DNA of 64,000 nt, taken from the IMG/VR virus record IMGVR_UViG_3300030329_004647, positions 168,029 through 232,028 of that record; one strand, given 5' to 3'. The stretch is from a virus. The position numbers and the translations under genes are program-made. Below the pieces are notes generated by a model. It made no database searches, was not told the origin of the DNA, and saw only the letters and a list, made by a program, of their open reading frames with translations. Shown here piece after piece: positions 32,801 to 58,112 of this stretch. Each line of letters opens with the position of its first letter. Within the stretch, counting starts at the first letter, position 1.

Positions 32801-32995
32801 AGTGTAGCCGCTGGTTTAAGTGAAGGTCAAGAAATAAATGATGGTGTATTTTTAGGTCACATGGGAGCTACAGGAAACGCTTCACCTGGTAAAGAACACC
32901 TACATTATGAAGTAAGGGTCACCAAATTAAATAGTAGATTAGCCCCTATAACTAAAGTAGCTGACCCGCTAGAAGGATATATTCCTGGACTATAA
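26885..32995 (+). CDS. Giant baseplate hub protein with C-terminal M23 peptidase
   Basis: 2036 residues. The first 250 look like a hub beta domain (NVVINQSFVPEVTINFTDI, HMPYPVFHLTLKGYYGTAV). A second hub-like part near residues 1720-1795 (CALIQPTQYFQLRYVPMF, GVYMIKSVEHSIAPNTM) resembles gp27/gpD-type hub ends. The C-terminal 150 residues are an M23/LytM endopeptidase: HKGVD (H1889, D1893), YCHL (H1968) and HLHYE (H2005, H2007), the four zinc-site residues expected. It should cut peptide cross-links of peptidoglycan during injection, replacing the T4 gp5 lysozyme. The middle 1400 residues are unassigned. Confidence 0.88.
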   Translation: MSISGNEDILTEKIGGNLTVINPNKVITNKGVKDRLVNHEDLVIYANLVAKIVPRSKILLGDADTESEVAIDLFGGEVNFLKPKGKKSLDSSWTEAFTNPDFNKITYSENEDFAQTGAYTKSLKEAEDFQGFGITSINVVINQSFVPEVTINFTDIRGKTLFEQGDTGGPYTAFFHMPYPVFHLTLKGYYGTAVKYQLKLMKFNAAFDSSSGDYNITCKFIGNHSALLNDLNLHQAMIAPYMYPSPTRGEGGVSTGLGMQIMNEVYQTYEDRGLIKKDFPRYTIFALMNKVNQFETELASNFKKEDLQFMDDKKTYQDELTKFYNSIFGTGQWFDTFLDKTTATVIPTNVTASAGTENIVAYQLLDATDSGVAAANDAWVKRKDTYVERLNSNLTFGETGQRPITVSGRFDVSHQIASGTSSTLEGPYWYIVDKKSESFGIQWLNVQKEFEKNFNELQTEVSKNLNKTFVETLGFYPSIRNLHAVILAGSDTFIRLLDRVHTEAFKQRNNQKRLRVLVPEDVKNEEKTVFPWPIYYEETEDNERILQYPGASKSLSITGAYDAKLWPEVEFVEEYTKASAFHTESINAPFENQFVTIDYIPLSVREFPFDNEVYGQSAVDKMVMEIYDRSFDLLNYGSLTWQNRSSDVIPAIQELAQYDAEVLEKRIKLNSNLATFFGNSTVTDINSIFEYFNNEKGQDVILRWQLGLPNTSYISQRNIEGKNIPGTNYGVYPGYISFIQLVETKPYTQVLNYIHDQKSDSTFDMYPLRWDMGSAWIQETLANGQTADEGSFYTTKEIQLDPEAKLFSTQNLKYFLCNHHVINEDPTNESIINDEIISTKDLKTKEEWESHYQGTDGKQIKHITEGLNHSGDYTKVLSLFNTPYFANALAKGYIEKDQPGAFLNLGYMFLQSLPIATTKEKMLWSPGNYGSYISQILNQLAAHHQIPLAFALKIGSIWWRYKTAGITNPDTDADNWDDAINSGTLGYFNTSINTGTGPEFLYTDSIMGLGFSYTLPDGTIATGDNGSEISLGIYPKLMAAAHYMVTGQDVLSPVVDDATLLNNFNISSGFSVNVIKETDASFNANNQQVNYYTTYGTGNSVTVQSTIDTAVSTAGVPSGDYYILYPSAGGMLSNEFESAAGVTSYNNQVGGHNGSVRFLWSLPQYGYFSGDTFPARDQYYKKIFNDKDEQDIFAISNGGTELTQRYSYIDELLAVFPTEVLNYFEDMFKNFCQRRNPSTEEIEGEYTSLHQVLGQILYVPLSDVKLPDQGTGKFTSNIAAAQHKKAINILETFTQQKVFYKKGSVNNLDNVINIDGNPIQSYQALVYLLRANGTSSMSQLPEAIQQSWDQPFKDIFFPYNNNLPPDIPLATFMVNNPGLYSTFQYYFPSAFGGIDMVTVTNSPVYEFFREINIAPTEENVPLFAPIIRTYYSNGNNLESLGELETTLSQTQNQYLEQLFNNLKKIEPDTKEEDAIIEDDRPLIVADNLKLELYQSFKHLNDAWIAGLTGLEDRTLLEKFYFLDRANEDIGDEAVIDIFIMQQLGNPFTPDPSASVDRTLNSFLSKIAMDNNFLKLDLPSYINFFGVGDANSSSQGNAMFGTFTEVDTTKSGPVFLYIYIGEESTHLSVKTDNYGFNNDSFDLNKTTPNPLVRTTPLSPEKQARSNAIMAYTVDFGIPNQNVFTSINLDQSQSENTSESYIVLDDLALAGGGKNVSTNSLNLFNVYKTRSYNCSVEAMGCALIQPTQYFQLRYVPMFSGVYMIKSVEHSIAPNTMTTKFEGVRIPIPNLPKVTDLITRVQTSLLEKVKSAVEKADSPEEVPGDMFDFTEEELNRGPEEEGGPTNQTAPIAGITFSAPVDISKVEDPRTIDSSRVSGGPEVGDPRSGGRVHKGVDLYPKTDFMGEELEITAAHSGKITKIVRNCLDDNTVGSCGGGYGNHVRIVREIVEWPSNVTLAEGTIIKVETRYCHLKRGSVAAGLSEGQEINDGVFLGHMGATGNASPGKEHLHYEVRVTKLNSRLAPITKVADPLEGYIPGL

Positions 32996-41525: not shown

Positions 41526-41987
41526 ATGCCATCAAAAAGATTTGGAATAGCGTTCCCATTTTCAGATAGTCCAGACGGATTATTTTTGAAAACTACTAAA
41601 ACACCTTCAGAAGAATTACGTGCTAATTTTATTCATTTAATACTTACTAAAAAAGGTAGTAGATATTTTTTACCTGATTTTGGGACGAGATTAATGGAAT
41701 ATGTTTTCGACCAATTGGATGAACCTACACTCAAGGCTATAGAATCAGAACTACAAGATGCGGTAGATAAGTACCTACCAAACCTACAAATTTTAGGTAT
41801 ACACGTTACCATTTTAAAAGACGCTAACGACGCAGAACTAAATCCAGTAATAAATAGTGATGAAGATGCTAGAGTTTTTAGAGTAGCTGGAACATCTGCT
41901 CAGGAACACACAGCTAAAATTAGAATAGAATATACTTTAAAAGATAATGTTTTTCAAACTAAAGACTTTGTAATTATTAATATATAA
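41526..41987 (+). CDS. gp25: Baseplate wedge protein gp25-like
   Basis: 153 residues (T4 gp25 has 132). The gp25/W family pattern is clear: ELRANFIHLILTKKGSRYFL, then PDFGTRLMEYVFDQLDEP and TLKAIESELQDAVDKYLPNL. It clamps the wedge and starts sheath assembly. It lies one base before the gp6-like gene, as in many contractile tails. Confidence 0.92.
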   Translation: MPSKRFGIAFPFSDSPDGLFLKTTKTPSEELRANFIHLILTKKGSRYFLPDFGTRLMEYVFDQLDEPTLKAIESELQDAVDKYLPNLQILGIHVTILKDANDAELNPVINSDEDARVFRVAGTSAQEHTAKIRIEYTLKDNVFQTKDFVIINI

Positions 41988-41988
41988 T

Positions 41989-43827
41989 ATGGCACAGAAA
42001 AAAATATCATATACGGAAAGAGATTTTTTGGGTCTAAGGAATGAACTTCTAAGACTAACAAATATCTATTACCCTGATTTAATTCAAGACGCGAGTGACG
42101 CTTCTATATATTCTTTATTTCTAGATTTAAATGCGGCGGTAGCAGACAATTTACACTATAGTATTGATAGAAGTTTACAAGAAACGGTTTTACAATTTGC
42201 CCAGGAAAGAAGTTCTTTATATAATATAGCTAGAACTTATGGTTTAAAAATACCAGGCAAAAGACCATCTGTTGCTTTATGTGACTTATCGGTTATTGTA
42301 CCAGCCAGAGGAGACCAAGAAGATACTAGATATCTTGGATTATTAAAAAGTGGTTCACAATTTAGAGGAGCGGGACAAGTTTTCGAACTTGTAAACGACT
42401 GTGATTTTTCTTCCCAATATTCCGTAGACGGTACACCTAATAGAACAAAAATACCTAATTTAGACGCTAACGGGATAATTGTTAATTATACCATTACAAA
42501 AAGAGAACCGGTAGTTAACGGAGTTACAAGAATCTTTAAAAAAGAAATAAGAGATATTGATTCTAAACCATTCTTTAAACTATTTCTTCCAGAAAGAAAT
42601 GTGTTAGGAGTTACAAATGTGATATATAAAGAGGGTACAAACTTCCAGTCTTTACCTTCTGGTTTAGAATTCATCAACTCACCTAACAAGTATTATGAAA
42701 TGCAGGCTCTTGCGGAACAAGATGTTTTTATTATAAATCCATCGATGCCTGCGGATGATGCTGGACTAAAAGTCGGTAACTATATCCAAACAGATAATAG
42801 GTTTATTACAGAACATACACCTGAAGGTTACTTCTTTTTAACTTTTGGTGGTGGTAATAATACACCACAAGAGTTATTGGACGATTTTAGTAGGTATGGA
42901 ATGCCTTTAGATTTAAATAGATTTATGAATACAGCCTCTATGGGTACCGCTGTTAGACCTAACACTACTATTTTTGTACAATATAGAGTTGGTGGTGGTA
43001 CCACATCCAATGTTGGTGCTGGAGCTATAAATTCTGTAGGTGTAATAGATTTTGTGGTTTATGGCCCAAATACAACTCAAAATAATAGAGTCATAAATAG
43101 TTTAGCTGTAAACAATGTTACAGCAGCTGTAGGTGGAGCAGACCAAATGACAGAAGAAGAAGTTAGAAATTACGTTTCTTTTAATTTTGCTGGACAAAAT
43201 AGAGCGGTAACTATTAATGATTATGTAAATAAAATCAGAACAATGCCTGCAGTATTTGGAGCTGCTGCTAAAGTAGGTGTTACTGAGATTGAAAATAAAG
43301 TTAAAATAGATATTTTATCATATAACCCAGATGGTACACTAACCTCTAATGTTAGTAATACACTTAAAAGTAATATAGTAACGTATCTATCCAACTATAG
43401 AATGTTAAATGATTATATAGAAATTGCTTCTGGTAATGTAATCGATTTAGCTTTTGAGGTTGATTTAATTATTGAACAAGGAGTAAATCAGTCTGAAATA
43501 ATAACTAATGTCATAACTAAAGTAGGTGATTACTTTGGTGTGAGTAAAGTTGAAATGGGAGCGCCTGTTAATATGGGTAACCTAAGAAGACAGATAATGG
43601 AACAACCAGGAGTAATAAACATAGTAGATATTAAAGTATTTAATAAGGTGGGTAATGGATACTCAAGCAGTGAAATTAGTCAAGCATATGTAGACCCAGA
43701 AACTAAACAAATAGCTTTAATTGACGAGACTATTTTTCTACAACCAAACGAGATAGCAGCCATCCGAGTACCGCAAGTAGACATCAACGTTAGATTTAAA
43801 CAACCTAGCCAACCTATAATATATTAG
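41989..43827 (+). CDS. gp6: Baseplate wedge protein gp6-like (baseplate J family)
   Basis: 612 residues (T4 gp6 has 660). The start ISYTERDFLGLRNELLRLTN, then ASDASIYSLFLDLNAAVADN, and the middle DQMTEEEVRNYVSFNFAGQN with NDYVNKIRTMPAVFGAAAKV are typical of gp6/J wedge proteins. It forms the iris ring that opens when the baseplate fires. It directly follows gp25 and is the last recognisable T4-type wedge gene before very long unassigned proteins. Confidence 0.9.
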   Translation: MAQKKISYTERDFLGLRNELLRLTNIYYPDLIQDASDASIYSLFLDLNAAVADNLHYSIDRSLQETVLQFAQERSSLYNIARTYGLKIPGKRPSVALCDLSVIVPARGDQEDTRYLGLLKSGSQFRGAGQVFELVNDCDFSSQYSVDGTPNRTKIPNLDANGIIVNYTITKREPVVNGVTRIFKKEIRDIDSKPFFKLFLPERNVLGVTNVIYKEGTNFQSLPSGLEFINSPNKYYEMQALAEQDVFIINPSMPADDAGLKVGNYIQTDNRFITEHTPEGYFFLTFGGGNNTPQELLDDFSRYGMPLDLNRFMNTASMGTAVRPNTTIFVQYRVGGGTTSNVGAGAINSVGVIDFVVYGPNTTQNNRVINSLAVNNVTAAVGGADQMTEEEVRNYVSFNFAGQNRAVTINDYVNKIRTMPAVFGAAAKVGVTEIENKVKIDILSYNPDGTLTSNVSNTLKSNIVTYLSNYRMLNDYIEIASGNVIDLAFEVDLIIEQGVNQSEIITNVITKVGDYFGVSKVEMGAPVNMGNLRRQIMEQPGVINIVDIKVFNKVGNGYSSSEISQAYVDPETKQIALIDETIFLQPNEIAAIRVPQVDINVRFKQPSQPIIY

Positions 43828-43899: not shown

Positions 43900-46800
43900 A
43901 TGCCTAGGAATATAAGAATTAGAACAAAAATTGGGGTAGACAAGGAAGTTAAGGTAAACCTCGACCAAGATTTTGATAGATTGGAGATATTAAGTTTGAA
44001 TCTCCATCAGTCTGACACATACAGAAGAGATTGTGCAGATTTTGGTGTTATAGCTGGTAGAGTTGTAACAAATGGAGGGTTTGGAGTACCAAATGCAAAG
44101 GTAGCTGTGTTTGTACCTTTAGACAATGAAGACGAAAGTAATCCAGTAATATCACAATTATATCCTTATAAAAGAACCAGTTTTAGAAACGAAGAAGGTT
44201 ATAGTTATAATCTACTATCCTCAACACCAAACTACGAAGGACACAAAGCAACTGGAACCTTCCCGACAAGAAGAGAAGTACTACTTAATCAAGATGTAGA
44301 GTACGTTTATAAAAAATACTATAAATTCACAGTTAAAACCAATCCAAGTGGTGATTATATGTTATATGGTATTCCTCCAGGAAACCAAACATTAATAATG
44401 AATTTAGATTTAAGTGACATGGGTTGTTTTTCATTAACACCAGAAGACTTAAAAAGAATGGGGAAACCTGAAGCACAATTTGATGGTGCGGATTTTATGA
44501 GTGGAACAACACTAGAAACTTTACCACAAATAGTATCACAAGCTAAGGTAATTGAAGTTAGACCATTTTGGGGTGATGACGAAGCTTGTAACGCTGCAAT
44601 AACAAGAGTAGATTTTGATTTAAGAGATTCTAGTATAGAAATAAAACCTGTAGCGGTTTTTATGGGGTCCTCAGCTAGTGATGATGGTAAAAACTCTGTT
44701 AATAAAAACTGTATTCCTAGAAGAAGACAAGGTAATTTATGTGAGCTAGTTACCGGACCAGGTGATATAGAATCTATAAGACACACAATAGCTTATACTA
44801 CTGGGGGTACGATAAACGCACCCCAAGTAACCCCAATTTTACAAAGAAAAGATTATCCTGGAGCTTTAGATGGGGATGGAGCTTTTTTAATAAATGTTCC
44901 TATGAATATGGACTATGTTTATACTAATGAATTTGGTGAACAAGTTTTAAGTCCAGACCCAAAAGTAGGGATACCAACAAAATCTAAAAGTAGATTTAGA
45001 ATTAAATTTTCACAAGATGGGTCAGGATTTAGATTAAGAAAACGTGGAGAATACTTATTACCTAATATTAAAGAGTACAACGCTATACCTGCCGATGCTG
45101 GAGAAAATGTTGTTAATGGTAATATTACAATAGAAGAAGCTTCATATTCATTTTCTACAGACATAGAAAACTATGCGTCTAAATACGATGTTTTAGCTAC
45201 TAATGATTATTTTTATACCTTTCGGTATAATAGAGTATACACCCCATCTTTATATTTACACAAACATAGAGACAGTATAAATATTTTAGGTTTTATACCT
45301 TTCGGTAATAACAAACATAGGTTTGTGGGTATAAAATCTATTAAACCAGACCCTAAAGACGCTTGTACAGATATTGTTACTGAGTTTCCAGCAAATGATG
45401 CGTATAGGGACACTAATTTGATGTTTATAATTGCACAACTAATGTTCATTTTTATGCAAATTATTTTTATAGTCTTATTTTTATATTTGGGTTATATCAC
45501 TATTAGTTGGTTATTAGCTTTTGCTGCAGGTATAGGTTCAGAAGTTTATTTTGGTACTTTACTAGGTGGTATTATGGCTTACGCGATTAATTCTATAGCT
45601 AGAGGGTTTGATGTTAATTTACCATTAACTAAGTATTCAGAATGTGAGTCGTGTGATTGTGGTGGTAATCCATTTTTCGACTTTAATCTTGGAGCGTTTA
45701 GTATGAGTTACGCCGCGTCAAGTGTGTCGATGCCTTCCGTAGACTCCTCATTTGTAGGGTCTAGTTTTTCTGCTCCACCAGGTCAATCAGGAAGTGCAGC
45801 CGCCGGGGGACCAACACCTAATGTAAGTTTAACCGCACCAACCAACGCAGAGGCAAACTGCGCAGATTTGGTACATTTACCAGCTGGAAACTGTAACGCT
45901 TGTGCTGGTGGGCTAAACACAAATTTCTATGATAACGGATGTTATCAACTATCTTTTGGTAATTACGGAATTATTAACACTGCTGGTAACGCGATAAATG
46001 GAACAATTGTAGCTATAACAGTAGCACTTGCACTTTATATATTTCTTTGTATTGTAGGTACAGTAGGTAGTTTTGGTACAGCTGGACCCATTATTTGTCA
46101 AGGTTTAAATTTCATAGTAGGACTAGTTACAATATTACTTTATATAGCTATTATAACTTTATTTGCTGGGTTTTTAATTGCGATATTCACTGGTACAGGA
46201 GGATGCAACAGTATTGTCCACCTAAGTAGTTTTTGGAGAGCTAGAAAAACAGTATATCAAGCACTATGTGGTGGGATAATTAATCAAATATTTGCTAATA
46301 ATTGGATACACGGATTTCTATACCACTTTCAATTTAAAGCTAAAACTATAACAGATGCTCAGGCAGCTAGTTTAAATTGGATACCTTTTGGCTGGGCTCC
46401 ACAAGCGGGGACTAAATTCTGTGAATCAGTAGTGTATCTATCCGATAAACAAAAAAAATATTATTATAGGAGTTCTAAATGGGCACCAGGAGCTAATTAT
46501 CCACAAGGAACGTTTAATAAATTAAGGTTTTCCACAACTGTAAGTGAAATAGGATTGACTAAAGGTTATTTATTAGACACATGTAACGACTTATCTATTT
46601 GTGATGATTGTTATGTATTACCAAAAATGGGGTCCACCTCAGCTCAAGATAATGATGATTTATTAGAATATATAGCCAATTCAAGGTACCAATGGGAAAT
46701 TGAAGATATTAATAACCCTTATTTCCTAGGGAGCGTTACCATTAGAAATTTATTCTTCAATATTAGAAATAACAGCAAAGTAGACGGTGATATAGCTCAA

Positions 46801-47406
46801 GCTATTTCACAAAACAATGAATTTGGAATGGCTCAGTTCGTTTCACCTGATGAACCAGGAAACTCACTCTCAAACCCAGGTTCACTTACAAACTTTGAAG
46901 TTGCTTTAACTAACCCATACTATTTTGAATTACTAGACTCATCTCAATGTCAAACACCGAATAGTGTTGGGTTTACAGGTCCTGAAGGTACCATAGATAC
47001 TAATGGTGGTGTTGTTACTATTCCATTCGCTGTAGAAGGTCCTGAAACAAGAGATTGTTTATTAGGAAAAGCAGATGGGTTTGATTGGAGTCAAGATACA
47101 TATTGGGGACATTGGTCAACAGCTGGTGGAGCTGGTGGATGGGGTGATAGAGGTAATGATTATTCATTAACATCTAATGATGGTGTACAAGCACCAGGGG
47201 GTATAACACAATTTGTTAGTCAACCAGGATACCAATATTCTCCTAACACTTTACCACCTATTGGACCAACAACCGCTGATGACATGAGAATAGCTAGACA
47301 TTTCCACTATTATTTCGGGCATAAAGTAGGTTTTACGTCCTATAATTTATTTGAAGAAAAGTACATAAATAAACCAGAAGATGATTTAGATTTAACAACA
47401 TTATAG
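43900..47406 (+). CDS. Very large baseplate protein with two hydrophobic membrane-type regions
   Basis: 1168 residues. The N-terminal region has a carboxypeptidase-regulatory-like beta domain (VIAGRVVTNGGFGVPNAKVA, then GDYMLYGIPPGNQTL). Two long hydrophobic regions follow, about 508-570 (FIIAQLMFIFMQIIFIVLFL and more) and 701-767 (IVAITVALALYIFLCIVG and more), each able to span a membrane twice or more. Between them is a Cys cluster (CESCDCGG) and a Gly/Ser/Pro-rich linker. The C-terminal 400 residues are soluble and Trp/Gly-rich. It occupies the place of T4 gp7 but T4 gp7 has no such regions. It may insert into the host envelope during injection; this is inference. Confidence 0.7.
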   Translation: MPRNIRIRTKIGVDKEVKVNLDQDFDRLEILSLNLHQSDTYRRDCADFGVIAGRVVTNGGFGVPNAKVAVFVPLDNEDESNPVISQLYPYKRTSFRNEEGYSYNLLSSTPNYEGHKATGTFPTRREVLLNQDVEYVYKKYYKFTVKTNPSGDYMLYGIPPGNQTLIMNLDLSDMGCFSLTPEDLKRMGKPEAQFDGADFMSGTTLETLPQIVSQAKVIEVRPFWGDDEACNAAITRVDFDLRDSSIEIKPVAVFMGSSASDDGKNSVNKNCIPRRRQGNLCELVTGPGDIESIRHTIAYTTGGTINAPQVTPILQRKDYPGALDGDGAFLINVPMNMDYVYTNEFGEQVLSPDPKVGIPTKSKSRFRIKFSQDGSGFRLRKRGEYLLPNIKEYNAIPADAGENVVNGNITIEEASYSFSTDIENYASKYDVLATNDYFYTFRYNRVYTPSLYLHKHRDSINILGFIPFGNNKHRFVGIKSIKPDPKDACTDIVTEFPANDAYRDTNLMFIIAQLMFIFMQIIFIVLFLYLGYITISWLLAFAAGIGSEVYFGTLLGGIMAYAINSIARGFDVNLPLTKYSECESCDCGGNPFFDFNLGAFSMSYAASSVSMPSVDSSFVGSSFSAPPGQSGSAAAGGPTPNVSLTAPTNAEANCADLVHLPAGNCNACAGGLNTNFYDNGCYQLSFGNYGIINTAGNAINGTIVAITVALALYIFLCIVGTVGSFGTAGPIICQGLNFIVGLVTILLYIAIITLFAGFLIAIFTGTGGCNSIVHLSSFWRARKTVYQALCGGIINQIFANNWIHGFLYHFQFKAKTITDAQAASLNWIPFGWAPQAGTKFCESVVYLSDKQKKYYYRSSKWAPGANYPQGTFNKLRFSTTVSEIGLTKGYLLDTCNDLSICDDCYVLPKMGSTSAQDNDDLLEYIANSRYQWEIEDINNPYFLGSVTIRNLFFNIRNNSKVDGDIAQAISQNNEFGMAQFVSPDEPGNSLSNPGSLTNFEVALTNPYYFELLDSSQCQTPNSVGFTGPEGTIDTNGGVVTIPFAVEGPETRDCLLGKADGFDWSQDTYWGHWSTAGGAGGWGDRGNDYSLTSNDGVQAPGGITQFVSQPGYQYSPNTLPPIGPTTADDMRIARHFHYYFGHKVGFTSYNLFEEKYINKPEDDLDLTTL

Positions 47407-49188
47407 ATGAGTTATAGTGAAGGAATAAGAATAGTAAGGGGAAGTAAACGTTTTATTGGAGGCGTTGACAAAGACGTATCGATACCATACGCTCTTGAAG
47501 CACAACAACTCAATTTAATTGAAGGCGATAGAAATAAGGTACTAGACTTAAGTGAACAGTTTTTAAGAGAAAGAGACTCGTCTTCAATATATAGATTTTA
47601 CGGTAAGATTTCACCTTTATATGAAAACTTTTTAACGGGGTGCACAGAGGACACAGTATTAATGCAACACCACATGGAGTTTACTTCTCCACACCCTAAC
47701 ACAGCTACTACTACCTGTGGATACCCATCTTTTGAGATATTTGATTTTGTACCTAGCACAGGATTTACAAACTCGTCCCTGCAAGGTTCACCCAACCCCT
47801 ATGAAGAACAATTAGCCTACCAATATAACTGGACAATTTATGAGTCTTACGTTTATAGTGCAGACACAGAAGAAAAAATGCATTGGGTAGCTCAATTTAC
47901 ACCACCAAACTACCAAATATTACAGTTTACCGCTCACGACGGAATACCTTTTACTGTTAACAATGTACAAGTAGAAGGTAAAAATTTATTAAAATGTACT
48001 TGCCCAGTAGAACATGGTTTAAATGTGGGAGAATATATACTTTTAGCAGATGGTACCACCAATAATGCAATTAATCAAAATCTAGTAACTATAATAAATG
48101 GAGACTCTTTAGTTCCAGTTTATTCTTTAGGTGATGCAACAGTAGGTTCCGATACAACTATATTTAACATCTTATTAGATGGTAGTAGTAACGTACCACC
48201 CAACTTCTCACTAGGAAATTTTAAAAGAGTTATTAACCCCGATAATTTAGAGGAAACAACCTCACAATATTATGTGCACCAACATAAATTAATAACAACA
48301 CCTAGGGATTATATTTTAGATAATTGTGCGTTTGAGTTAGGCATATATGACGCTGATAAAAAGGTTTATTGTGAACACGACTCACCACCTAACGGAATAC
48401 CACATAAAGTAACTAAACAAGAATATAGAAGTTTTTTATGGAACTTTACAAATGATTTAAACACAGCATTTTTATCTGACAATTTAAATAGACCTATAAC
48501 TGAAATATATACTAGTATTTTTGTTACCAATTACTATAATATATGGGACCAAATTACATTACTAAATTCACAACCAGCACCATACCTAGCAACAGGTTCA
48601 TCACCAGCTGGGTACGGATGGTCTTGGAATTTCCAACCAAATGGAACTCTAGATTCCTATCCAAGTAGCCACCCAACTAATCTACAAACACCAACTACAT
48701 ATCCTACAAGTGGTGACACCTTTAGAGGGGCATACGCAGAATATAATCCATCAGAAGTAAAAGAAAGAGTAGTTTCTGAAATTTATCATAAATTACAGTA
48801 CAATCTAGCTCTTATGGATATTGGAATTGAGTGGTATCCAGCTACTATGGGTGGACAATGGGACCACCCACCACCAGGATACTACTACCAACCTCATAAT
48901 AGAATGATAACTAGAAAATATTCTAACCAGATATCTACAAATCCAGATTATAACTACGCTCCGCCTTATGCTTATTATTCAGTATACGAAAATACTTTTA
49001 AGTGGAGAAATATTTTAGATTTGGGTTATTATGAATCTGAAACAAATGGGGTTAATTATCCTTTTTTAAACGGAATACAATATGTTTATAATAACATAAT
49101 GTTTAACATAAAACCATTACTTGGAGACCTAAGATTTAGAGGTGCTACAAGTCCAATAGAAATACCTGACTTTGATGACTGTCAATAG
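47407..49188 (+). CDS. Unknown baseplate/tail appendage protein
   Basis: 593 residues, starting on the base after the previous stop. The N-terminal part (GIRIVRGSKRFIGGVDKDVS, then YALEAQQLNLIEGDRNKVL) is helical, and the rest is rich in Tyr, Asn and Pro. The phrase FTAHDGIPFTVNNVQ and LKCTCPVEHGLNVGEY mark a beta domain with one Cys pair. No family is recognised. Operon position between the membrane-type protein and fibre genes suggests a baseplate-periphery part. Confidence 0.6.
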   Translation: MSYSEGIRIVRGSKRFIGGVDKDVSIPYALEAQQLNLIEGDRNKVLDLSEQFLRERDSSSIYRFYGKISPLYENFLTGCTEDTVLMQHHMEFTSPHPNTATTTCGYPSFEIFDFVPSTGFTNSSLQGSPNPYEEQLAYQYNWTIYESYVYSADTEEKMHWVAQFTPPNYQILQFTAHDGIPFTVNNVQVEGKNLLKCTCPVEHGLNVGEYILLADGTTNNAINQNLVTIINGDSLVPVYSLGDATVGSDTTIFNILLDGSSNVPPNFSLGNFKRVINPDNLEETTSQYYVHQHKLITTPRDYILDNCAFELGIYDADKKVYCEHDSPPNGIPHKVTKQEYRSFLWNFTNDLNTAFLSDNLNRPITEIYTSIFVTNYYNIWDQITLLNSQPAPYLATGSSPAGYGWSWNFQPNGTLDSYPSSHPTNLQTPTTYPTSGDTFRGAYAEYNPSEVKERVVSEIYHKLQYNLALMDIGIEWYPATMGGQWDHPPPGYYYQPHNRMITRKYSNQISTNPDYNYAPPYAYYSVYENTFKWRNILDLGYYESETNGVNYPFLNGIQYVYNNIMFNIKPLLGDLRFRGATSPIEIPDFDDCQ

Positions 49189-50107
49189 AATTAAAATATT
49201 AAGAAAAGATTTAGAACAAAACGACAAAAGAATTGTAGTGCCTTTTGCAACTGATTTTGATGAAGTAGGGAGAAATCAATTAGTGCAATTGTATGAAGAT
49301 TCTGAAATGCAAGATGCGATAAATTATATACAAGATTTTGAAACAGTAAGATATTCTCATGAGGAAACCCTTAATAATGCTGACAACAGTCATATATTTT
49401 ACGATATGAATTTTATAACAACTATTGGGGGTTTAGATTATACTAATTCTTATTCAGCGATGGACATATCAAATCAAGATGTAAGAGACGCACAAAACAG
49501 TTTTACTAAAAGTTTTTTTAAGTTTGATTTTTATAATACACCTAACAGGTCACAACAAAGACTTATGTTTTCTACAATTATGCCTTGCGACGCATCCAAA
49601 AAAGTTGAAGTTCCTATATCGAGTGACCCAAACGACATTAATTTTGACCCATTTGCCTATATCAACGCTATCTCATTAGACCCTACAAACGCCAATCCAA
49701 CCTATCTAATCAATCAAGCGTTATTTGATTTAGGGCCTCATAGAACTAATAACGAAAATTATTATCTTCATTGGTTAAAAGGAACCAATATATTTGATAG
49801 TGTAGAATTTTATATGTCTTGTACTTTCTTTAATGCACAAACAGGTGAATTTTATCCATTACTAACAACACACCAGTTTGATTTTAACGGAAACCTCACC
49901 CCAATGAATGATATATACACTTTTAATTTTGCGGATTGGAGATATTATAAAGTAACATTAGATAGAAATCATTTAGGTCAAAATGCTGATTATAGAAAAT
50001 ATACTTACAAAGTAGAAGAATATAATGAATCACAAGGAGGAGTTGGTAATAGAGTGGGAACCACCAGTGCCAATCCGATAAAGTTTTTTGAATACCAAAG
50101 CCCATAA
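49175..50107 (+). CDS. Unknown structural protein
   Basis: 310 residues from the ATG at 49175; a TTG one codon upstream is less likely. It overlaps the previous gene by 14 bases and the next by one. Beta-rich with many Asn, Asp and Phe (SFTKSFFKFDFYNTPNRSQQ, IFDSVEFYMSCTFFNAQ). No known family. Probably a baseplate or fibre-attachment part by position. Confidence 0.6.
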   Translation: MTVNRIKILRKDLEQNDKRIVVPFATDFDEVGRNQLVQLYEDSEMQDAINYIQDFETVRYSHEETLNNADNSHIFYDMNFITTIGGLDYTNSYSAMDISNQDVRDAQNSFTKSFFKFDFYNTPNRSQQRLMFSTIMPCDASKKVEVPISSDPNDINFDPFAYINAISLDPTNANPTYLINQALFDLGPHRTNNENYYLHWLKGTNIFDSVEFYMSCTFFNAQTGEFYPLLTTHQFDFNGNLTPMNDIYTFNFADWRYYKVTLDRNHLGQNADYRKYTYKVEEYNESQGGVGNRVGTTSANPIKFFEYQSP

Positions 50108-52728
50108 TGGACATTTATAAATACAGAGTACTCACAGGTAATATACCAGGCAAATACACTCCATTTCCTTGTGGAGATGTAATATATGGGTGTACAGATA
50201 CTGACGCGGTAAACTTTAACCCAGCGGCTACTGTCAATCAAGTTTCAGAAACTAATACCGCTAATCCCTGTACGTATACAGTTAATTTAAGTGGTATGTG
50301 TTGTGGGACTTGTTTAGACTGTTTTGACTTTACAGGTGATGGTGTTATTAGTGTAGGTGATTTAAATGTGTTTCTACAATACTATTATACAGTACAACCA
50401 GACTGTACAAATGGTGATGCTACAAATAGTGGTTATGTTAATGAAGAAGACTTAAATATATTTTTACAATGTTGGAATTTAACTAATAATCCTATAGATT
50501 GTCAAACCACTTTTGCTGGTCAACCAGATGCTATTCAGGCTTGTTTAGATGCAAATAGTGTAAGTGAAATCCCACAAGAAGAAGAAAAAGAATATTTGGT
50601 ACAAGTTTACCTAGACCAAGATTTTAATGATATAGGTCATTACTCACTTACAGATGGTAAAATACAACATAAAAGTGACTTTTCAAATTTTGCCGTATTT
50701 TGTGATGATACAAACCCAAATATGGTTACAGTTGAAAACTCAACAAATTTTAATTTATGGGCAGACACACAAAACTATGAATATACGATAGAATGGGGTG
50801 ACGGAACAACAACTGTCGCACAATACCCAACTATACTAAATAGTCATACGTATAATCCACCACCACCCGCATTTACTGGAACCTATGAGATTAACATTAC
50901 AATGGTAACCAACTGGAGTACTTTATCTGTAACACAAACTCACGCTATACCATGTGAGACACCAGATATAACTGGTAGTAATATAACTCAAACCTACCAA
51001 TTTACTCCATTAGGTGGAGCTCCAATAAGTTTAGATTGGTATAACACAAGTTGGGGTCCACTAGATAGTGGATTTTATGCAGAGGACTATATAACAGGTA
51101 ATTATACTACAACACCATTTATCATTACAGGTATAACTGATAGTGTGCTAAGTAATTTCCAAACTTATTCCCAAGCTCCATCTAATAACGCATATTTACC
51201 TAACGGTTATTTTGTAGGACCTAATTTTTTAGTTCCTTTTGGTGGTGAAGTCGCTATAGATAATGGTGGGGTTACAATATATGAAGATGGATTAGTAGGA
51301 TATATAATGAATGCAACACCAAACTATACAGCATATACCATAAGTGATGGTACAGGACAAAATGGTGGAATTGTACTAACCGACCAAATGATAGATGGAG
51401 AGTTAATTACAATTTATGAAGCGACTAGTGAAGGATTAAATCTACAAAATATGGGTTGGAAATATTGTTATAAACCTTGTGATGATTGTATGGGGCCACA
51501 AATGTGGATTAATGGTCAGATGGTTAACGTAAGTATTGAAGCGGGAGAATGGGATGAAAATGTATTATATAGTCAAGGTTCACTCGTAACATCTAAAGGG
51601 TGTTGTTATTTTAATTATGATACTGCTCAAGGTCAAAGTAATAATACTTCCAATACAGACATCTGGCAACCTTGTCCATCACAACCAAGCACATGTACTT
51701 CAGTTTTAGTTTGTGAATGTCAGGGATGGACAATCCAATATGGAGCAAGTCCACTCGCTACCATGTGTCAGGAATTTGACGCATTACAAGCTGCTGGATT
51801 TGGTTACCCAGCGGGGTCTATAGTTGAATTTCCAGTTGGTAGTGGTGTGTACTATTGGAACGTCATAGCTGAAGCTAACACCCCACCAAACGGTACTTGG
51901 GAATTGTGTGATGCTCCAGTTAACAGTCCTATAGTGGTAGAATTAAATTTAGAGTGTTGTGATTTAGTAGCAGAAGTAACCAATGGTATAGCACCATTTG
52001 AGTACACCTTTACGGATAATTTCAATAGTGGCGCTATTATAGTACAAGTACCAGGTGTATATAACACAACTCAAATGTTACAACAAAATTTATTTGCACC
52101 AGGACCAACTAATTTTTTAGTAGGTCAAAACATTACTGTTACTGTTACAGATTCACAAGGAAACACGTCGACTGATTCTATTAGTATAGCTGGATTACAA
52201 TGGGACCAAACAGGTAGTGTGATGTATCCACCAACAAATCAACAAGGAAATCAAGGTGGGTATACCGCACTTTTAACAGGGGGTGTATTTGATATTAATT
52301 GTGCACCAATATCTTTCTACTGGGCAGTATATCCACCTGCACAAGGAACTCCACCGACAACTACTTTTAACTACTCTACACAAGAAATATATATTGGATG
52401 GCACCCAACACAACAACCTAATGGTTTATTAGTGCCAGGACAGTACAATCTTAGAGTTGTAGATAGTTGTGGGACTAATATTGACGTGACCTTCATGGTT
52501 CCAAATATACCAAGTCCACCAGGGCCACAACAACAATATATTTTATACGATAACAATTGTCTGCCTTACTCATCACCTTTTGCTCAACAGTATATAGCTA
52601 ATGGTGGGGTTATATTTGATAGTCTACAAGCGTGTCAAGCTAATATTAGTCAAACACCACCACCTCCACCACCACAAAACGGTGCTGGCTGGTCACCCAA
52701 TAATCAAGGAAACTTATATAATACTTAA
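50107..52728 (+). CDS. Multidomain fibre/adhesin with dockerin-like, PKD-like and CBM-like modules
   Basis: 873 residues. In order: a GCTDTDAVNFNPAA module (28-56) of a kind common in Bacteroidetes surface proteins; a dockerin-like double calcium loop (74-123), DFTGDGVISVGDLNVFL and NGDATNSGYVNEEDLNIFL; a PKD-like beta domain with IEWGDGTTT near 230; then two segments resembling chitin-binding CBM5/12 modules near 480-522 and 570-605 (VEFPVGSGVYYW, GTWELC). Proline-rich PPPPPP linkers end the protein. These modules suit calcium-stabilised binding of host surface polysaccharide. Module names are by pattern only. Confidence 0.7.
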   Translation: MDIYKYRVLTGNIPGKYTPFPCGDVIYGCTDTDAVNFNPAATVNQVSETNTANPCTYTVNLSGMCCGTCLDCFDFTGDGVISVGDLNVFLQYYYTVQPDCTNGDATNSGYVNEEDLNIFLQCWNLTNNPIDCQTTFAGQPDAIQACLDANSVSEIPQEEEKEYLVQVYLDQDFNDIGHYSLTDGKIQHKSDFSNFAVFCDDTNPNMVTVENSTNFNLWADTQNYEYTIEWGDGTTTVAQYPTILNSHTYNPPPPAFTGTYEINITMVTNWSTLSVTQTHAIPCETPDITGSNITQTYQFTPLGGAPISLDWYNTSWGPLDSGFYAEDYITGNYTTTPFIITGITDSVLSNFQTYSQAPSNNAYLPNGYFVGPNFLVPFGGEVAIDNGGVTIYEDGLVGYIMNATPNYTAYTISDGTGQNGGIVLTDQMIDGELITIYEATSEGLNLQNMGWKYCYKPCDDCMGPQMWINGQMVNVSIEAGEWDENVLYSQGSLVTSKGCCYFNYDTAQGQSNNTSNTDIWQPCPSQPSTCTSVLVCECQGWTIQYGASPLATMCQEFDALQAAGFGYPAGSIVEFPVGSGVYYWNVIAEANTPPNGTWELCDAPVNSPIVVELNLECCDLVAEVTNGIAPFEYTFTDNFNSGAIIVQVPGVYNTTQMLQQNLFAPGPTNFLVGQNITVTVTDSQGNTSTDSISIAGLQWDQTGSVMYPPTNQQGNQGGYTALLTGGVFDINCAPISFYWAVYPPAQGTPPTTTFNYSTQEIYIGWHPTQQPNGLLVPGQYNLRVVDSCGTNIDVTFMVPNIPSPPGPQQQYILYDNNCLPYSSPFAQQYIANGGVIFDSLQACQANISQTPPPPPPQNGAGWSPNNQGNLYNT

Positions 52729-52744
52729 ATGAAAAATAATTAAA

Positions 52745-54175
52745 ATGGTAGAACCACAATTTCATATATACAAACTTTGTGACATGGATACAGGACAAGA
52801 CCCTGTTACTAACCAATATACTATGGCTAGTGCGTTCACCATGGGACACCAACACCTAGACCCACCTGGTGCACAACAATGGATTTTTGGGACATATGGT
52901 ATGGGTAGTGATAAGTGGGAAGTGGCACAAATGGGTGATGTTACTTACAACCTGTTATTTGGTCTATCTAATCCACCAAATCCTGGAGAGTTTATAAAAC
53001 TTCAAACCATGACATCCGCACAACTACCAACAGGAATTATTACCTGGCAAAATGTTGCTTACGGATACCCCGCGTATCCAGGATGTGATAACGACCCTAT
53101 AACCCAAAATCCTGATTGTTATAGTAGATGTTATCAGTACTTAGGAAAATATAGTTGTGGTGACACTATGATAGATGGGACCATTAATGAATGTTTTGGA
53201 TATGCACCAACTGGTCCTTTTCCACCAACAGCTATTATTAATGACCCAATACTTTACGTTCATTCAGTTCCAAATACACAAGCCAATCAACACATAGCGA
53301 CATGCTCAGAGTGTGCCGGTTTTGGTCCACCACCTCCACCACCACCTGTGGTTCCGTGTCCTGATGCTGCTGCACAAACCCCACCTGTTAGCACTACTTT
53401 TGTGGGTTCATGGACACTTCCAGGAACATATTATTTAGGTGATGTAGTAGAATACCCAACAAATTCGGGTGTTTATTATTGGCACAATAGCTATCCTGGA
53501 GGTTTTACATATTCGGACTTATCTGGTGGCGGGATGCAAACTTATAATCCACTTTTATTGACTCAATGGCAACCATGTGTACCAGTGGTTCCCCCACCAC
53601 CCCCACTATCAGTACCATGTACTTCAGCTCAACAACAATACCCTAATCAAACATTTTCTTTTTCAGGAGCTTGGGATTCCGTAGCGTATGCTAATGATAT
53701 TTGGTACTATAGTGCGTTTTCTATAGTAGAATTTCCTCCAGCTTCTGGAATATATTGGTGGACAGATAGTGGTAGTTCACAAGGACAACCTGATATACTT
53801 ACAAATAATAAATGGTATCTATGTGAACCAGGAGGAGGACCAGGACCACCACCAATAGCAGGATGTACAGACTCAACGGCTTTAAACTATGACCCCGCTG
53901 CAGACGGTTGTTTAGACCCTCAAGGAATTGTAGTACCGGGAGACTTTAGTTGTTGTTTATATCCACAACCTAAAGAAAAACATTGTTTACCTTATTTAGT
54001 AAAAGAAGAGTTTTTAATGAATGTTGCACAAGCACCAGAAACTCGTTCCAATGTATTTATTGAAAGAGGTAAAGCTTCTGTATTCCAAAGAGCACAACGA
54101 TTATCCGAAATTAAATCAATCGGAGATTTAGAAACTCATGGATATGGATATTATAAAATACAAAATGAAACTTAA
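52745..54175 (+). CDS. Fibre protein with CBM-like repeats and polyproline linkers
   Basis: 476 residues. Two repeats have the layout VPC...VEYPTNSGVYYW...WQPC and VPC...VEFPPASGIYWW...WYLC, each separated by linkers of 5-7 prolines, like small carbohydrate-binding modules. A GCTDSTALNYDPAADGC module follows, as in the previous protein. The last 65 residues (FLMNVAQAPETRSNVFIERG, then KSIGDLETHGYGYYKIQ) look conserved and may attach the fibre to the baseplate. The N-terminus, FHIYKLCDMD, has no signal peptide. Receptor binding is inferred. Confidence 0.7.
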   Translation: MVEPQFHIYKLCDMDTGQDPVTNQYTMASAFTMGHQHLDPPGAQQWIFGTYGMGSDKWEVAQMGDVTYNLLFGLSNPPNPGEFIKLQTMTSAQLPTGIITWQNVAYGYPAYPGCDNDPITQNPDCYSRCYQYLGKYSCGDTMIDGTINECFGYAPTGPFPPTAIINDPILYVHSVPNTQANQHIATCSECAGFGPPPPPPPVVPCPDAAAQTPPVSTTFVGSWTLPGTYYLGDVVEYPTNSGVYYWHNSYPGGFTYSDLSGGGMQTYNPLLLTQWQPCVPVVPPPPPLSVPCTSAQQQYPNQTFSFSGAWDSVAYANDIWYYSAFSIVEFPPASGIYWWTDSGSSQGQPDILTNNKWYLCEPGGGPGPPPIAGCTDSTALNYDPAADGCLDPQGIVVPGDFSCCLYPQPKEKHCLPYLVKEEFLMNVAQAPETRSNVFIERGKASVFQRAQRLSEIKSIGDLETHGYGYYKIQNET

Positions 54176-54180
54176 AAAAT

Positions 54181-55098
54181 ATGGCACTAGGAACTTACGG
54201 AATTAAAAGACCAGCAGACGTATCACCAGCAGACGTGGAAATAATTGTACACTACACGTCTACTAGAGATTATACTACAAATTATACATTAAGAAAATTA
54301 AATACATCTCAAGTATTAACACCATATCTACATAATGCACAGACAGGTGGAAACGCGGGAGTTGAAATCTTGGGAGGACTATATAATTTAAAATTACCAT
54401 CTTCTGTTTTTAATAAAAAAGGATATTATACGGTATACATAAGACCTATAGAAATAAGAACCAAAATAGTAGATTGTGGTATTTTATCATCTTTACCTAA
54501 TGTTAAAGGATTGGTATTTGACATAAACCAAGTACCGTCTTCATTTATTAATAGATTTGTTAATTCAGGTCTTGTAGGATATAGAATTGAGTATTTAGGA
54601 CAAGCAGGAACTAAGATACCAAACTTTTATAGATTAGTAACATCTAATTTTTATTGTGAACCTGTACCAGCTAATTTAACTAACCCAAATCAAGTATCAC
54701 CTAGATATGTTTATACTGATGGTACCAGTAATTTAATGTTTTGTACTTTAACACCAACAAGTGCACCAACAACTAAACCAAATGCTATTCCATTTATAGG
54801 TCAACCAAACCAAGATGTTATAATAACTAATACATTCTTTAATCCTATTATTTTAGATATAGAAATGGTAGACCATGATTTTGAAACACTTGCAATTGCT
54901 CTATATGGTAACCAAACTAAATCTATGGAAGATGGAATATACACAGTATACGATTTATCTGGTAACAATAACATTTATAAACAATACAACATATTTGAGA
55001 TTAGAAATGACTTCGATAATAAACTATTTGAGGTAAGACAAGATAGAGGAACCAATATCGATTTTTCTAAAAACTTTAATAGCGTTTTAACTAGTTAA
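54181..55098 (+). CDS. Unknown structural protein, beta-rich
   Basis: 305 residues, 5 bases after the CBM-like fibre gene. The N-terminus LGTYGIKRPADVSPADVEII and VHYTSTRDYTTNYTL, the middle NFYRLVTSNFYCEPVPANL and the end FEVRQDRGTNIDFSKNFNS have no known family. It is probably an adaptor between fibre and baseplate, because it lies between fibre and tail-protein-I-like genes. Confidence 0.6.
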   Translation: MALGTYGIKRPADVSPADVEIIVHYTSTRDYTTNYTLRKLNTSQVLTPYLHNAQTGGNAGVEILGGLYNLKLPSSVFNKKGYYTVYIRPIEIRTKIVDCGILSSLPNVKGLVFDINQVPSSFINRFVNSGLVGYRIEYLGQAGTKIPNFYRLVTSNFYCEPVPANLTNPNQVSPRYVYTDGTSNLMFCTLTPTSAPTTKPNAIPFIGQPNQDVIITNTFFNPIILDIEMVDHDFETLAIALYGNQTKSMEDGIYTVYDLSGNNNIYKQYNIFEIRNDFDNKLFEVRQDRGTNIDFSKNFNSVLTS

Positions 55099-55109
55099 TA
55101 CTAATTTAG

Positions 55110-58100
55110 ATGGCAAAATACTATTATCCACCAGCGCCACCGAGCGGAGAAGACACATTCAGTAACAACCTAGTAGGGTTACAGTTTGTTAATGGGTCAT
55201 CGCAAATGACGCTCGGTAATTTTAGTATGACCCAATCAACTGGTGGTAGGGATGAAAGAGGATATAGTTTAGGTAACTTTAGTGAACCAATTAACTTATC
55301 CAACCTAAGTATAGAAAATTTAAAATTAGCTCAATTAAATTTAAATTTTAATTTACAAATTTCTTTTAATTATAACTTAGAGTTCGTACAAGATTTTGTA
55401 TTATATGGTTCATTAAAAGAAAGATTTAGGGTTAGTACTAAAAATATAATTAATTTTTTTCCAGCTTCATTATATCTAAATAAAGTTGATAATGGAGGTC
55501 AGACAGGGTCCACAACACTATCATTACTGTATGATGATATAAATGATAGAACAACACTGGTAATACCAACCGCTAATATAAAAAATCCTTTTGGTATTGA
55601 AATCACAGATTTGGGTGTTAATAAAATTACTCTTACAGCTGGGGATGGTTTAATAGATACTTCAGACTTAACAGCTGTTAAGGCAGAAAGTGGACAAATA
55701 TCTGATTTAAGAAATTTTTCTCTACAATATAAAAGGTATGTAATTTCCTTAAGTGGTTCATCATTAGAAACAGAATACCCTATAATTGATTATACCCCTA
55801 TAAAAAGAACCGATGATAGATTAACTATTGTTGTTTCAGGGTCACCATTAGGTACCGCTGATACAGCTAGTACCCTCTCCTATTATATAAAACCAAATAA
55901 TTTAGAAACACAAACTAGTTTTAAAGAATTTGATGAAGTAGAAAATTTTTTACTAAATAGAGAAATTGTTCCAGAATACACAGCACAATTTAAGGTACCT
56001 AGAGAAAGTCAATTAGGTAGTACCTATCTAGAAACAAAAAACATAACTTGGCCTAAAGTAGACTTAGTTAATTTAGATATTGTAAGCACTGCTTATACTG
56101 AGTATCTTACATCTTTAGCAGAAATAGGTGATGAGTTTGATTCTTATAAAACAAACTTAGTATCAAGATTTCTAACCACGGACCCAATAAAAGAATTTGA
56201 CACAGGCAGTAGAAAAGTAGAAAAAACATTACAAATATACGGTAGAAGTTTTGACGATATTAAAAAGTTTATAGATGGTATAGCTTACATGACCCGTGTA
56301 ACTTACGACACTAAAAATAATATTCCAGATAACTTATTGAAAAAGTTTGCTAGAATGTTAGGCCTTAAGACACCTTCGGTAATTTCAAAAGAAGACTTTT
56401 TAAATTCTTTACTTACCCCAGCAATACCACAATTTTCAGGAACCACAATAGGTAAAACACCATTCCAACTGGACACCGAATTGTATAGAAAAATATTAAT
56501 GAATCTAGCTTACCTGTACAAATCTAAAGGTACTAGAACAGCTATAGAGTTTATTTTAAGATTTGTAGGTGCCCCAGAAGCATTAATAGAATTTGATGAA
56601 CACGTTGTTATAGCAGACTCTAAAATAAATCTTAATAAATTTAATCAGTATTTTAGTGTAATATCTGGTGGGTCCTACTGTAATTACACATATCACCAAA
56701 ATCCAGTAGATAATACGATTACGACAAGTTGTTCTACAGTTACACAAGGATTTCAGAGAGATGATTATCCTATGAATGATGAAGGATACCCAACTCAACC
56801 AAGAGAAACAACCAACTACTACTTCCAAAGAGGAGCTGGATGGTATGAAGAAACAATGGAACATAGAGGTGAAGTAGTATTAGATTTAGAAACTTCAACT
56901 TTTTCTGGATGTAGTCCTATAATTAATACAAAACTAAATCAATTTACATGGGGTGGTTTCTTTGGTGACGGTTCAAAAGCTAACGACCCAGGAGGACCTT
57001 ACCTAGAAAGATTTTTTAGATTTCCACATTTACATTTTGGTTATGGTACACATAAAATAGTAGATGATAAAAAAGCATGGTTTCAAACTACACAATACGA
57101 AACTAGAGAATATGACCTAGGAGTAAGATACGCCAACTATGATGTTAGAGACGAAAAATTAATTATTAATGTTAAAAATGTTGATATATTTTTGAATATA
57201 GGACAAGGATTGGTATATGACGTTTGGAATCCTAAACATAGTTTTTTAACTGGAACCACTTTACCTTACCCATATCCTAATATTGGAGGACCAGATTGGA
57301 CTCAACCTAAAACAGATAGCAGAGAAGTTAGTTTTAAACGATTTATAAAAGATTTTTGGAGATATTATATAAATGTTAAAAATAGATTAACTATAGACGA
57401 TGGAAAAACAGGAGGATACCCAACCCTACTTAAAATTTATTTAGATTATTTAAATCAAGTTTATAGTAAAAACAATCAATATACCTATCAAAAAATGATA
57501 GAGTATGCAGAGTCTTTAGGTGATTATTGGATTAAATTAATAGAACAATTTGTACCAGCTACTACATTATGGCAAGGAGGGGTAAAAATAGAAAATTCAT
57601 TATTCCACAGAGATAAATTTGTTTACAAACATTTTAATTTATTAACTGGGATTACCACAACCGCTGTAACTGGACAAACAGCTGGAATGTCAGCGTTTGG
57701 ATATTCGGGATATAGTTTAAGTATGCCAGACGACCCTTTAATTAGTGGGTCAACACAACAAACATCCTCAAAAGGATGTAATGTGGAAACAGACCTGATT
57801 GTGCAAATAAGGAAAAAAATAGCTCAACAAGGAATCTACGCTATAGATGATTATACATGTGATTCTACATGGTTCCCAACTGTAATATATACAGGACCAC
57901 AAAACCTACAACTTAATGGTAACGCAAGAGCGGGTGTACAAAATCAAAATTTATATTATAATAGCCAATTATATGCAACCAATACTCAAAAAATGGGAGG
58001 TATTAAACAACACGCTAAATCAGGTCCCTTACAAGGTGTTGTAAAAATCTCTAAACCACAAAAAGTATTGACTAATAATTACCCATGGGACTATAATTAC

Positions 58101-58112
58101 ATTATAAAATAG
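55110..58112 (+). CDS. Large baseplate protein with P2 gpI-like segment
   Basis: 1000 residues. Around residues 440-500 the text FQLDTELYRKILMNLAYLYK and SKGTRTAIEFILRFVGAPEA fits the tail protein I pattern, in which a 'KGT...I...LR..G.P' segment builds the wedge arm. The N-terminal 300 residues are beta-rich, and the C-terminal half has fibre-like Gly/Tyr/Trp-rich text. It may combine wedge and arm functions that T4 splits among several proteins. It is followed at once by the next gene (stop and start adjacent). Confidence 0.65.
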   Translation: MAKYYYPPAPPSGEDTFSNNLVGLQFVNGSSQMTLGNFSMTQSTGGRDERGYSLGNFSEPINLSNLSIENLKLAQLNLNFNLQISFNYNLEFVQDFVLYGSLKERFRVSTKNIINFFPASLYLNKVDNGGQTGSTTLSLLYDDINDRTTLVIPTANIKNPFGIEITDLGVNKITLTAGDGLIDTSDLTAVKAESGQISDLRNFSLQYKRYVISLSGSSLETEYPIIDYTPIKRTDDRLTIVVSGSPLGTADTASTLSYYIKPNNLETQTSFKEFDEVENFLLNREIVPEYTAQFKVPRESQLGSTYLETKNITWPKVDLVNLDIVSTAYTEYLTSLAEIGDEFDSYKTNLVSRFLTTDPIKEFDTGSRKVEKTLQIYGRSFDDIKKFIDGIAYMTRVTYDTKNNIPDNLLKKFARMLGLKTPSVISKEDFLNSLLTPAIPQFSGTTIGKTPFQLDTELYRKILMNLAYLYKSKGTRTAIEFILRFVGAPEALIEFDEHVVIADSKINLNKFNQYFSVISGGSYCNYTYHQNPVDNTITTSCSTVTQGFQRDDYPMNDEGYPTQPRETTNYYFQRGAGWYEETMEHRGEVVLDLETSTFSGCSPIINTKLNQFTWGGFFGDGSKANDPGGPYLERFFRFPHLHFGYGTHKIVDDKKAWFQTTQYETREYDLGVRYANYDVRDEKLIINVKNVDIFLNIGQGLVYDVWNPKHSFLTGTTLPYPYPNIGGPDWTQPKTDSREVSFKRFIKDFWRYYINVKNRLTIDDGKTGGYPTLLKIYLDYLNQVYSKNNQYTYQKMIEYAESLGDYWIKLIEQFVPATTLWQGGVKIENSLFHRDKFVYKHFNLLTGITTTAVTGQTAGMSAFGYSGYSLSMPDDPLISGSTQQTSSKGCNVETDLIVQIRKKIAQQGIYAIDDYTCDSTWFPTVIYTGPQNLQLNGNARAGVQNQNLYYNSQLYATNTQKMGGIKQHAKSGPLQGVVKISKPQKVLTNNYPWDYNYIIK

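Follow-up and report, generated by a model that had tools for sequence, protein, structure and literature searches.

The adjacent open reading frames g50107 and g52745 are, with a probability that we put at about two in three, a single conserved baseplate-region gene split in two, which in a T4-like phage of Bacteroidota would serve as a two-chain carrier of glycan adhesins. The homology and synteny of the locus, the grouping of the split forms in a single clade, the presence of two ORFs, the conservation of the ends and the fast divergence of the modules are direct observations. The window, that is, the whole stretch of DNA analysed here, comprises the last 64 kb of the 232,028-base virus record IMGVR_UViG_3300030329_004647.

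The locus and its single-chain relatives

The ORF list gives g50107 (873 aa) at 50107-52728 and g52745 (476 aa) at 52745-54175, in agreement with the earlier note, which had placed a pair of neighbouring fibre genes at 50107-54175. Both genes are on the plus strand, as are all of their modules and the neighbouring and wedge genes mentioned below. The first half of the split gene, g50107, contains N-terminal modules, the core and post-core modules; the second, g52745, contains further modules and the conserved C-terminal segment (C-segment). A 16-nt gap (52729-52744) separates them. The open frames of the two chains do not overlap in any of the 11 split loci checked (11/11), therefore a programmed frameshift fusing the two ORFs was ruled out.

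By synteny, the upstream neighbour (49172-50107) and the downstream neighbour (54181-55098; 305 aa, 58-78% identity to 19 relatives) are conserved, and so is the next gene, g55110 (55110-58112; 1000 aa), which was paired with the 54181 gene for tree building. A gp7-like label for g55110 came from a motif likeness; neither Pfam nor PHROG profiles confirmed it, and the label is not claimed. The cluster is placed by two upstream genes, 41526-41987 and 41989-43827, that match PHROG baseplate wedge families (E 5.6e-12 and 3.4e-15), and PHROG matches on the record also include a tail sheath and T4-type replication genes. No PHROG family matched g50107 or g52745 at E 1; a fibre could still be encoded despite this missing match.

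The conserved 1168-aa baseplate-cluster protein encoded at 43900-47406 has strongly hydrophobic stretches at residues 504-546, 696-729 and 731-769, unusual in a virion protein, and a weak CarboxypepD_reg match (E 0.039). The best sheath stretch of the 1361-aa tail sheath gene at 12828-16913 is confined to residues 1065-1359, which leaves a very long N-terminal addition. Finally, the last ~70 residues of a 2036-aa protein (26885-32995) match a metallo-endopeptidase/endolysin family (E 7.9e-6); the protein may be a tape measure whose end is lytic.

Single-sequence searches with the full g50107 and g52745 proteins gave no direct relatives in viral contigs or phage records, so the two neighbouring genes were used as queries, which led to 93 loci. 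A further 80 were added through a profile of the 305-aa neighbour, among the matches listed; in viral contigs, at least 591 stretches, from 600 matches listed, were confirmed to encode that neighbour. In most relatives, a single ORF of ~360 aa occupies the place of g50107 and g52745 between the same flanking genes. It consists of a PKD-containing core and a conserved C-terminal segment of 57-67 aa: its first ~300 aa match residues ~165-416 of g50107, and its last ~58 aa match residues ~418-476 of g52745. Core and C-segment are found in one ORF at 120/142 loci carrying the downstream 305-aa gene and in two ORFs at 17/142, the remainder being a truncated C-segment ORF alone (n = 3), the core alone (n = 1) or neither (n = 1). 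Several loci in this count share a contig, and L094-L118 were excluded; L094 is identical to the window, and the CBM-like copies of g52745 are listed under it.

The two downstream genes (54181 and g55110) were used to build an unrooted tree of 115 distinct rows, for which midpoint rooting only was applied. The rows comprise 94 single-chain forms, three single-chain forms with an insert of ~190 aa, 16 split forms, one truncated form and one other; L028 is a long odd row among them. The 16 split rows and the truncated one form one clade (SH-aLRT 100), nested among single-chain rows in the midpoint-rooted tree. Midpoint rooting, the one basis for this polarity, suggests that the single-chain form is the ancestor. 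Nine rows inside the split clade make up a subclade in which a separate gene of 73-77 aa encodes the C-segment and follows a core ORF that can reach 2966 aa. The ~190-aa insert of L058, L065 and L066 is at the same core/C-segment junction but belongs to a clade other than the split one; this junction has thus been filled at least twice.

Two further arrangements were observed. In some relatives (L037:8175-8837, L120:9771-10406 and L147:9159-9776), an unrelated ORF of ~200-230 aa, nucleotidyltransferase-like on visual inspection only, separates the giant core ORF from the stand-alone C-segment gene. In L184, a 571-aa ORF before position 10001 appears to fuse the upstream neighbour to the core and C-segment, a single case that could be an assembly fault.

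Conservation is uneven along the gene. Between the window and L003, identity over aligned residues is 72% for the neighbour, 69% for the C-segment and 47% for the core, and falls to 30% for the post-core modules and 35% for the second-chain modules; counted over all columns, these two module regions reach just 9-16%. For the L027/L032 pair the values are 94.5% (neighbour), 95.8% (C-segment), 77% (core) and 70-82% (modules). In 9/9 pairs the post-core modules are less conserved than the C-segment, as are the second-chain modules in all six pairs that have them. The ends (flanking genes and C-segment) are therefore conserved while the modules between them diverge fast.

Core, PKD domain and sugar-binding-type modules

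The conserved core (50599-51426; g50107 residues 165-440) was defined by alignments A1/A2 with 32 relatives and has 15 invariant columns. It includes a PKD domain (50671-50961; residues 189-285), identified by AlphaFold2 (AF2) modelling and VIA-align. The pLDDT of this region is ~62-92, mostly above 75, and the model superimposes on solved PKD domains with a VIA Z of 9.7 (rmsd 1.9, 76 aligned; 7kv7) and 8.6 (4l9d). The single-chain short form has the same fold (VIA Z 9.3), and the closest solved PKD for both models is that of the Bacteroides fluxus surface glycan-binding protein B. For both proteins, the VIA rows are largely confined to the PKD part; rows for Fibronectin-III and cytokine-receptor domains rank below the PKD rows and reflect a general beta-sandwich likeness. 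The PKD-like module proposed earlier is thus confirmed by fold, although the Pfam match in g50107 is weak (PF00801, E 1.2, 9.6 bits, below the gathering score of 23.5). Being part of the core common to the short forms, the PKD domain is old in the gene and does not count as an acquired adhesin module.

The best AF2 models are otherwise weak, with a mean pLDDT of 47 and 52 and values below 50 for the dockerin stretch and the C-segment. The C-segment (53972-54172; g52745 residues 410-476) is continuous with the core in the short forms and stands alone (~73 aa) in the sister clade. Its pLDDT in the short-form model is 25-45, which fits a piece that folds only inside an assembly.

Four CBM5/12-like modules, two per gene, were mapped by iterated profile. 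Those of g50107 are at 51544-51675 (residues 480-523), a copy common to long-form relatives, and at 51805-51909 (residues 567-601), and those of g52745 are at 53405-53578 (residues 221-278) and 53708-53824 (residues 322-360). The profile A4, built from 12 modules, retrieved solved CBM5/12-bearing chains of the chitin-oligosaccharide-deacetylase type (E 1.1e-5; 3wx7, E 4e-4). Pfam CBM_5_12 (PF02839) was matched by five of the 12 members (best 9e-5), with no match to it at E 10 for the seven others. Module 1 is the sole window copy shown by score, at 14.3 bits, below the Pfam gathering score of 26.2. The CBM5/12 family likeness suggests chitin or a GlcNAc-type polysaccharide as a putative ligand.

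Each gene also has one GCTD repeat, at 50182-50280 in g50107 (residues ~26-58, motif at residue 28) and at 53861-53959 in g52745 (residues ~373-405, motif at residue 373); each motif was reached in 0/5000 shuffles, and the repeat recurs in another gene of the same phage record. Polyproline runs were mapped to 52657-52674 (g50107 residues 851-856), 53327-53347 (g52745 residues 195-201) and 53591-53605 (g52745 residues 283-287). The claim that both genes share GCTD and CBM-like parts joined by polyproline linkers is correct for the parts, but the runs stand between modules only in g52745, that of g50107 being near the C-terminus. SprB/Ig-like repeats at residues ~610-800 of g50107 were considered and are not claimed (best Big_6 E 0.072, Invasin_D3 E 0.081).

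The dockerin-like module and the cohesin search

A dockerin-like module with two calcium-type loops was found at 50326-50478 (g50107 residues 74-124), as the earlier note had proposed, on the basis of two profiles and a motif; the profile scores straddle the cut-off. NF041540, the GC-type dockerin domain, matched these residues by hmmscan with an E of 1.1e-4 and 22.5 bits against a cut-off of 29, and reached 33.4 bits, above that cut-off, with neighbours in the genome search. Pfam Dockerin_1 (PF00404) matched the window copy with an E of 0.0056 (17.3 bits, cut-off 22.9) and was matched by 5/5 members of alignment A6. A double calcium loop of dockerin spacing at residue 74 was reached in 2/5000 shuffles of g50107, and across all loci the double-loop motif was found in six distinct sequences against 0/45,200 shuffles. 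Because troponin C, calmodulin and other EF-hand proteins match the dockerin profile too, dockerin-like is the safe word.

Most giant-form records contain a similar module. NF041540 matched in six of the nine, and G006 was assigned by homology and motif, with no NF041540 match in the short fragments G021 and G022. In the relatives, a dockerin-like insert is present in a conserved tail-region protein of ~260 aa (L121:5185-5967, minus strand; L122:5289-6068; L214; L215), and this protein was found in 7/7 giant-form records covered, among the 21 records searched. The window dockerin is 36% identical to the dockerin of this protein over 74 aa (E 3.2e-9). By eye, the homologues in two split relatives have degenerate loops.

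The calcium loops had been suggested to dock to the host or to a cohesin-like partner in another part of the tail. The genome search revealed no cohesin in the phage's own 232-kb record and none in the seven dockerin-bearing relatives among the 32 records searched, an absence that carries little weight given that the records are fragments. Two cohesin matches were obtained among the 32 relative records, one above and one below the cut-off, neither in a dockerin-bearing record. The match above the cut-off, L203 (G018:C1:68074-68211), is in a 938-aa frame with a WGDG stretch seen by eye, and no dockerin was matched in G018 (0 matches). Because of the G018 match, a docking partner elsewhere in the lineage could still exist.

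Host, proposed mechanism and significance

The T9SS is a trait of Bacteroidota. A T9SS sorting domain above cut-off, encoded on the record, makes a Bacteroidota bacterium the most likely host. This domain (TIGR04183, 39.4 bits, cut-off 23; Pfam, 40.7 bits, cut-off 27) is part of a 1123-aa protein with a GCTD-repeat array and, by eye, an N-terminal signal-like stretch, encoded outside the window on the same record (G000:C1:26046-33928; L118, L230). The same region contains a complete 801-aa TonB-dependent receptor (Plug E 1.2e-23, barrel E 2.5e-22) and, by eye, lipoprotein-like and porin-like ORFs, with fibre-like ORFs on either side. Surface-protein genes recur in the phages of this lineage: a TonB-dependent receptor was also found in a second member, L232 (G012:C1:48294-49778), giving 2/17 records, and T9SS sorting domains above cut-off are present in 3/21 records, G000 included (G016:C1:197264-197467 and G017:C1:6608-6871). 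The modules had been likened to those of secreted Bacteroidota proteins, and the T9SS-sorted GCTD protein and the Bacteroides-type PKD bear this out, except that the PKD, being in the core, does not stand as an acquired adhesin module. Searches for cultured or host-assigned relatives gave little: the 305-aa neighbour had no match in 50,697 phage records, g55110 gave one weak phage match (E 0.6), the short form gave four weak PKD-like ones (E 0.6-0.8), and two scans of GTDB contigs gave no confirmed relative.

In the proposed scheme, the starting form would be a single chain of ~360 aa made of the PKD-containing core and the short C-terminal segment. In the split clade, CBM5/12-like, GCTD, Cys-rich and dockerin-like modules would have been gained both N-terminally and at the core/C-segment junction, where the reading frame would then have been broken into two genes. 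Both chains are predicted to be located in the baseplate or tail tip. The C-segment may be the anchor that plugs the second chain into the assembly site used by the single-chain form, and the intervening modules may face the cell and bind surface glycans in a reversible, multivalent adhesion step that precedes irreversible binding. These sugar- and calcium-binding-type modules, which resemble host-surface ones, probably help the virus adhere to its host. The dockerin-like module may be a calcium-stabilised domain used for structure or for protein-protein contact.

The two genes were previously regarded as independent tail fibres with common borrowed modules, and the separate ORFs and the GCTD modules, CBM-like modules and polyproline runs present in both agree with this picture. 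Their modules were correctly named and the ORFs are indeed neighbours, but by synteny they are the halves of one conserved baseplate-cluster gene: core and C-segment, divided here between the first and the second ORF, belong to a gene that is single in 94/115 distinct loci between the same neighbours, which makes independence very unlikely. It is also rather unlikely that the two-gene state came first and that the short form arose later by fusion and loss of modules, a scenario that would leave the present function unchanged. The stand-alone C-segment gene of the sister clade and a tree that is unrooted, with midpoint rooting only, would suit this order of events, but the midpoint root argues against it, as do the position of the split clade, nested within single-chain rows, and an insertion that arose independently at this junction in a clade of single-chain forms.

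Two other readings concern function. A cellulosome-style coupling of the protein, through its dockerin-like module, to a cohesin-like partner in the virion or the host is quite unlikely: the dockerin profile matches, the dockerin in the 260-aa tail protein of seven giant-form records and the cohesin match above cut-off in the 938-aa frame of G018 would fit it, but no cohesin was found in the phage's own record or in seven dockerin-bearing relatives among the 32 searched, G018 gave 0 dockerin matches, and the profile also matches ordinary EF-hands. It is highly improbable that both products are made for the host cell, to be secreted or displayed on its surface, rather than for the virion. Their modules do resemble those of secreted Bacteroidota proteins, one of which is encoded elsewhere on the record; however, neither an N-terminal signal-like stretch (by eye) nor a T9SS sorting match was detected in g50107 or g52745, and the genes are inside a conserved structural gene cluster. 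The two-chain glycan-adhesin carrier is thus the reading that we retain. A bolder version, to which we give very little credence, combines a plug-in baseplate site, where adhesin cassettes from host-surface repertoires are swapped between a conserved core and a C-terminal plug on one, two or more chains, with the dockerin modules of two tail-region proteins as a real cellulosome-like coupling device.

Similar designs have been described in other phages. In the parts of the study consulted, the Bacillus cereus myophages Vp4 and Deep-Blue have baseplate proteins with CBM folds that are missing from the homologue (wedge Gp119 vs Gp177), one CBM-rich spike protein of Vp4 corresponds to two Deep-Blue proteins, the receptor-binding proteins contain a PKD domain, and binding to cells was demonstrated (PMC11406892). 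The window gene differs in the gene concerned and in the host phylum; dockerin and GCTD are features of the window not seen in the portion of that paper available to us, and in the window lineage the conserved C-segment may be a separate small protein (PMC11406892). In the evolved Dit and evolved Tal proteins of siphophages, as far as the excerpt describes them, CBMs are inserted into a conserved baseplate protein whose core is kept (PMC7291167). There the insertions are in galectin-domain loops of one chain, whereas in the window they are at the N-terminus and the core/C-segment junction, over two genes; the likeness concerns the inserted CBMs, and no homology is claimed (PMC7291167). Gut phages of Bacteroidota have modular adhesins of the PKD/BACON/Ig type, which are described, in the sections consulted, as mediating adherence to mucus and epithelium (PMC13370021), and which resemble the window genes in modularity and PKD, a comparison of module types and not of homology. 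A 364-aa 'PKD domain-containing protein' of an uncultured Caudovirales phage (BFVD A0A6J5L9U6; Foldseek E 8.0e-13, 24% identity, 343 columns), a single chain named from its PKD domain only, is very probably an already deposited single-chain form.

Like the window copy, dockerins of the NF041540/Dockerin_1 type have two calcium loops; the window copy differs from the usual ones in its location in a phage structural gene, its hmmscan score below the curated cut-off and the lack of a cohesin partner in our searches. In the open-access literature searched, the only case seen of a dockerin in a phage tail protein is a dockerin-type carbohydrate module fold modelled in an E. coli siphophage protein, according to the part of the report consulted (PMC5967307), therefore dockerins in phages are not claimed here as unreported. 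From the portions of these sources available, CBM-bearing baseplate proteins (PMC11406892, PMC7291167) and PKD-bearing adhesins of Bacteroidota phages (PMC13370021) were already known. What is new, within the literature searched, is the particular gene, its split around a C-terminal piece able to become its own gene, and its dockerin-like and GCTD modules.

The odd modules thus fall into an ordered scheme: a phage lineage that is widespread, and for which the phage collection searched holds no match, keeps the ends of a baseplate-region gene and varies its middle. The locus is a direct place to seek what determines receptor binding in large Bacteroidota phages; it also provides a natural experiment on single-chain versus split proteins and a test case for whether dockerins work outside cellulosomes. 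If the plug-in and coupling version were true, virion parts would clip together, or onto host-surface scaffolds, by a dockerin-cohesin bond.
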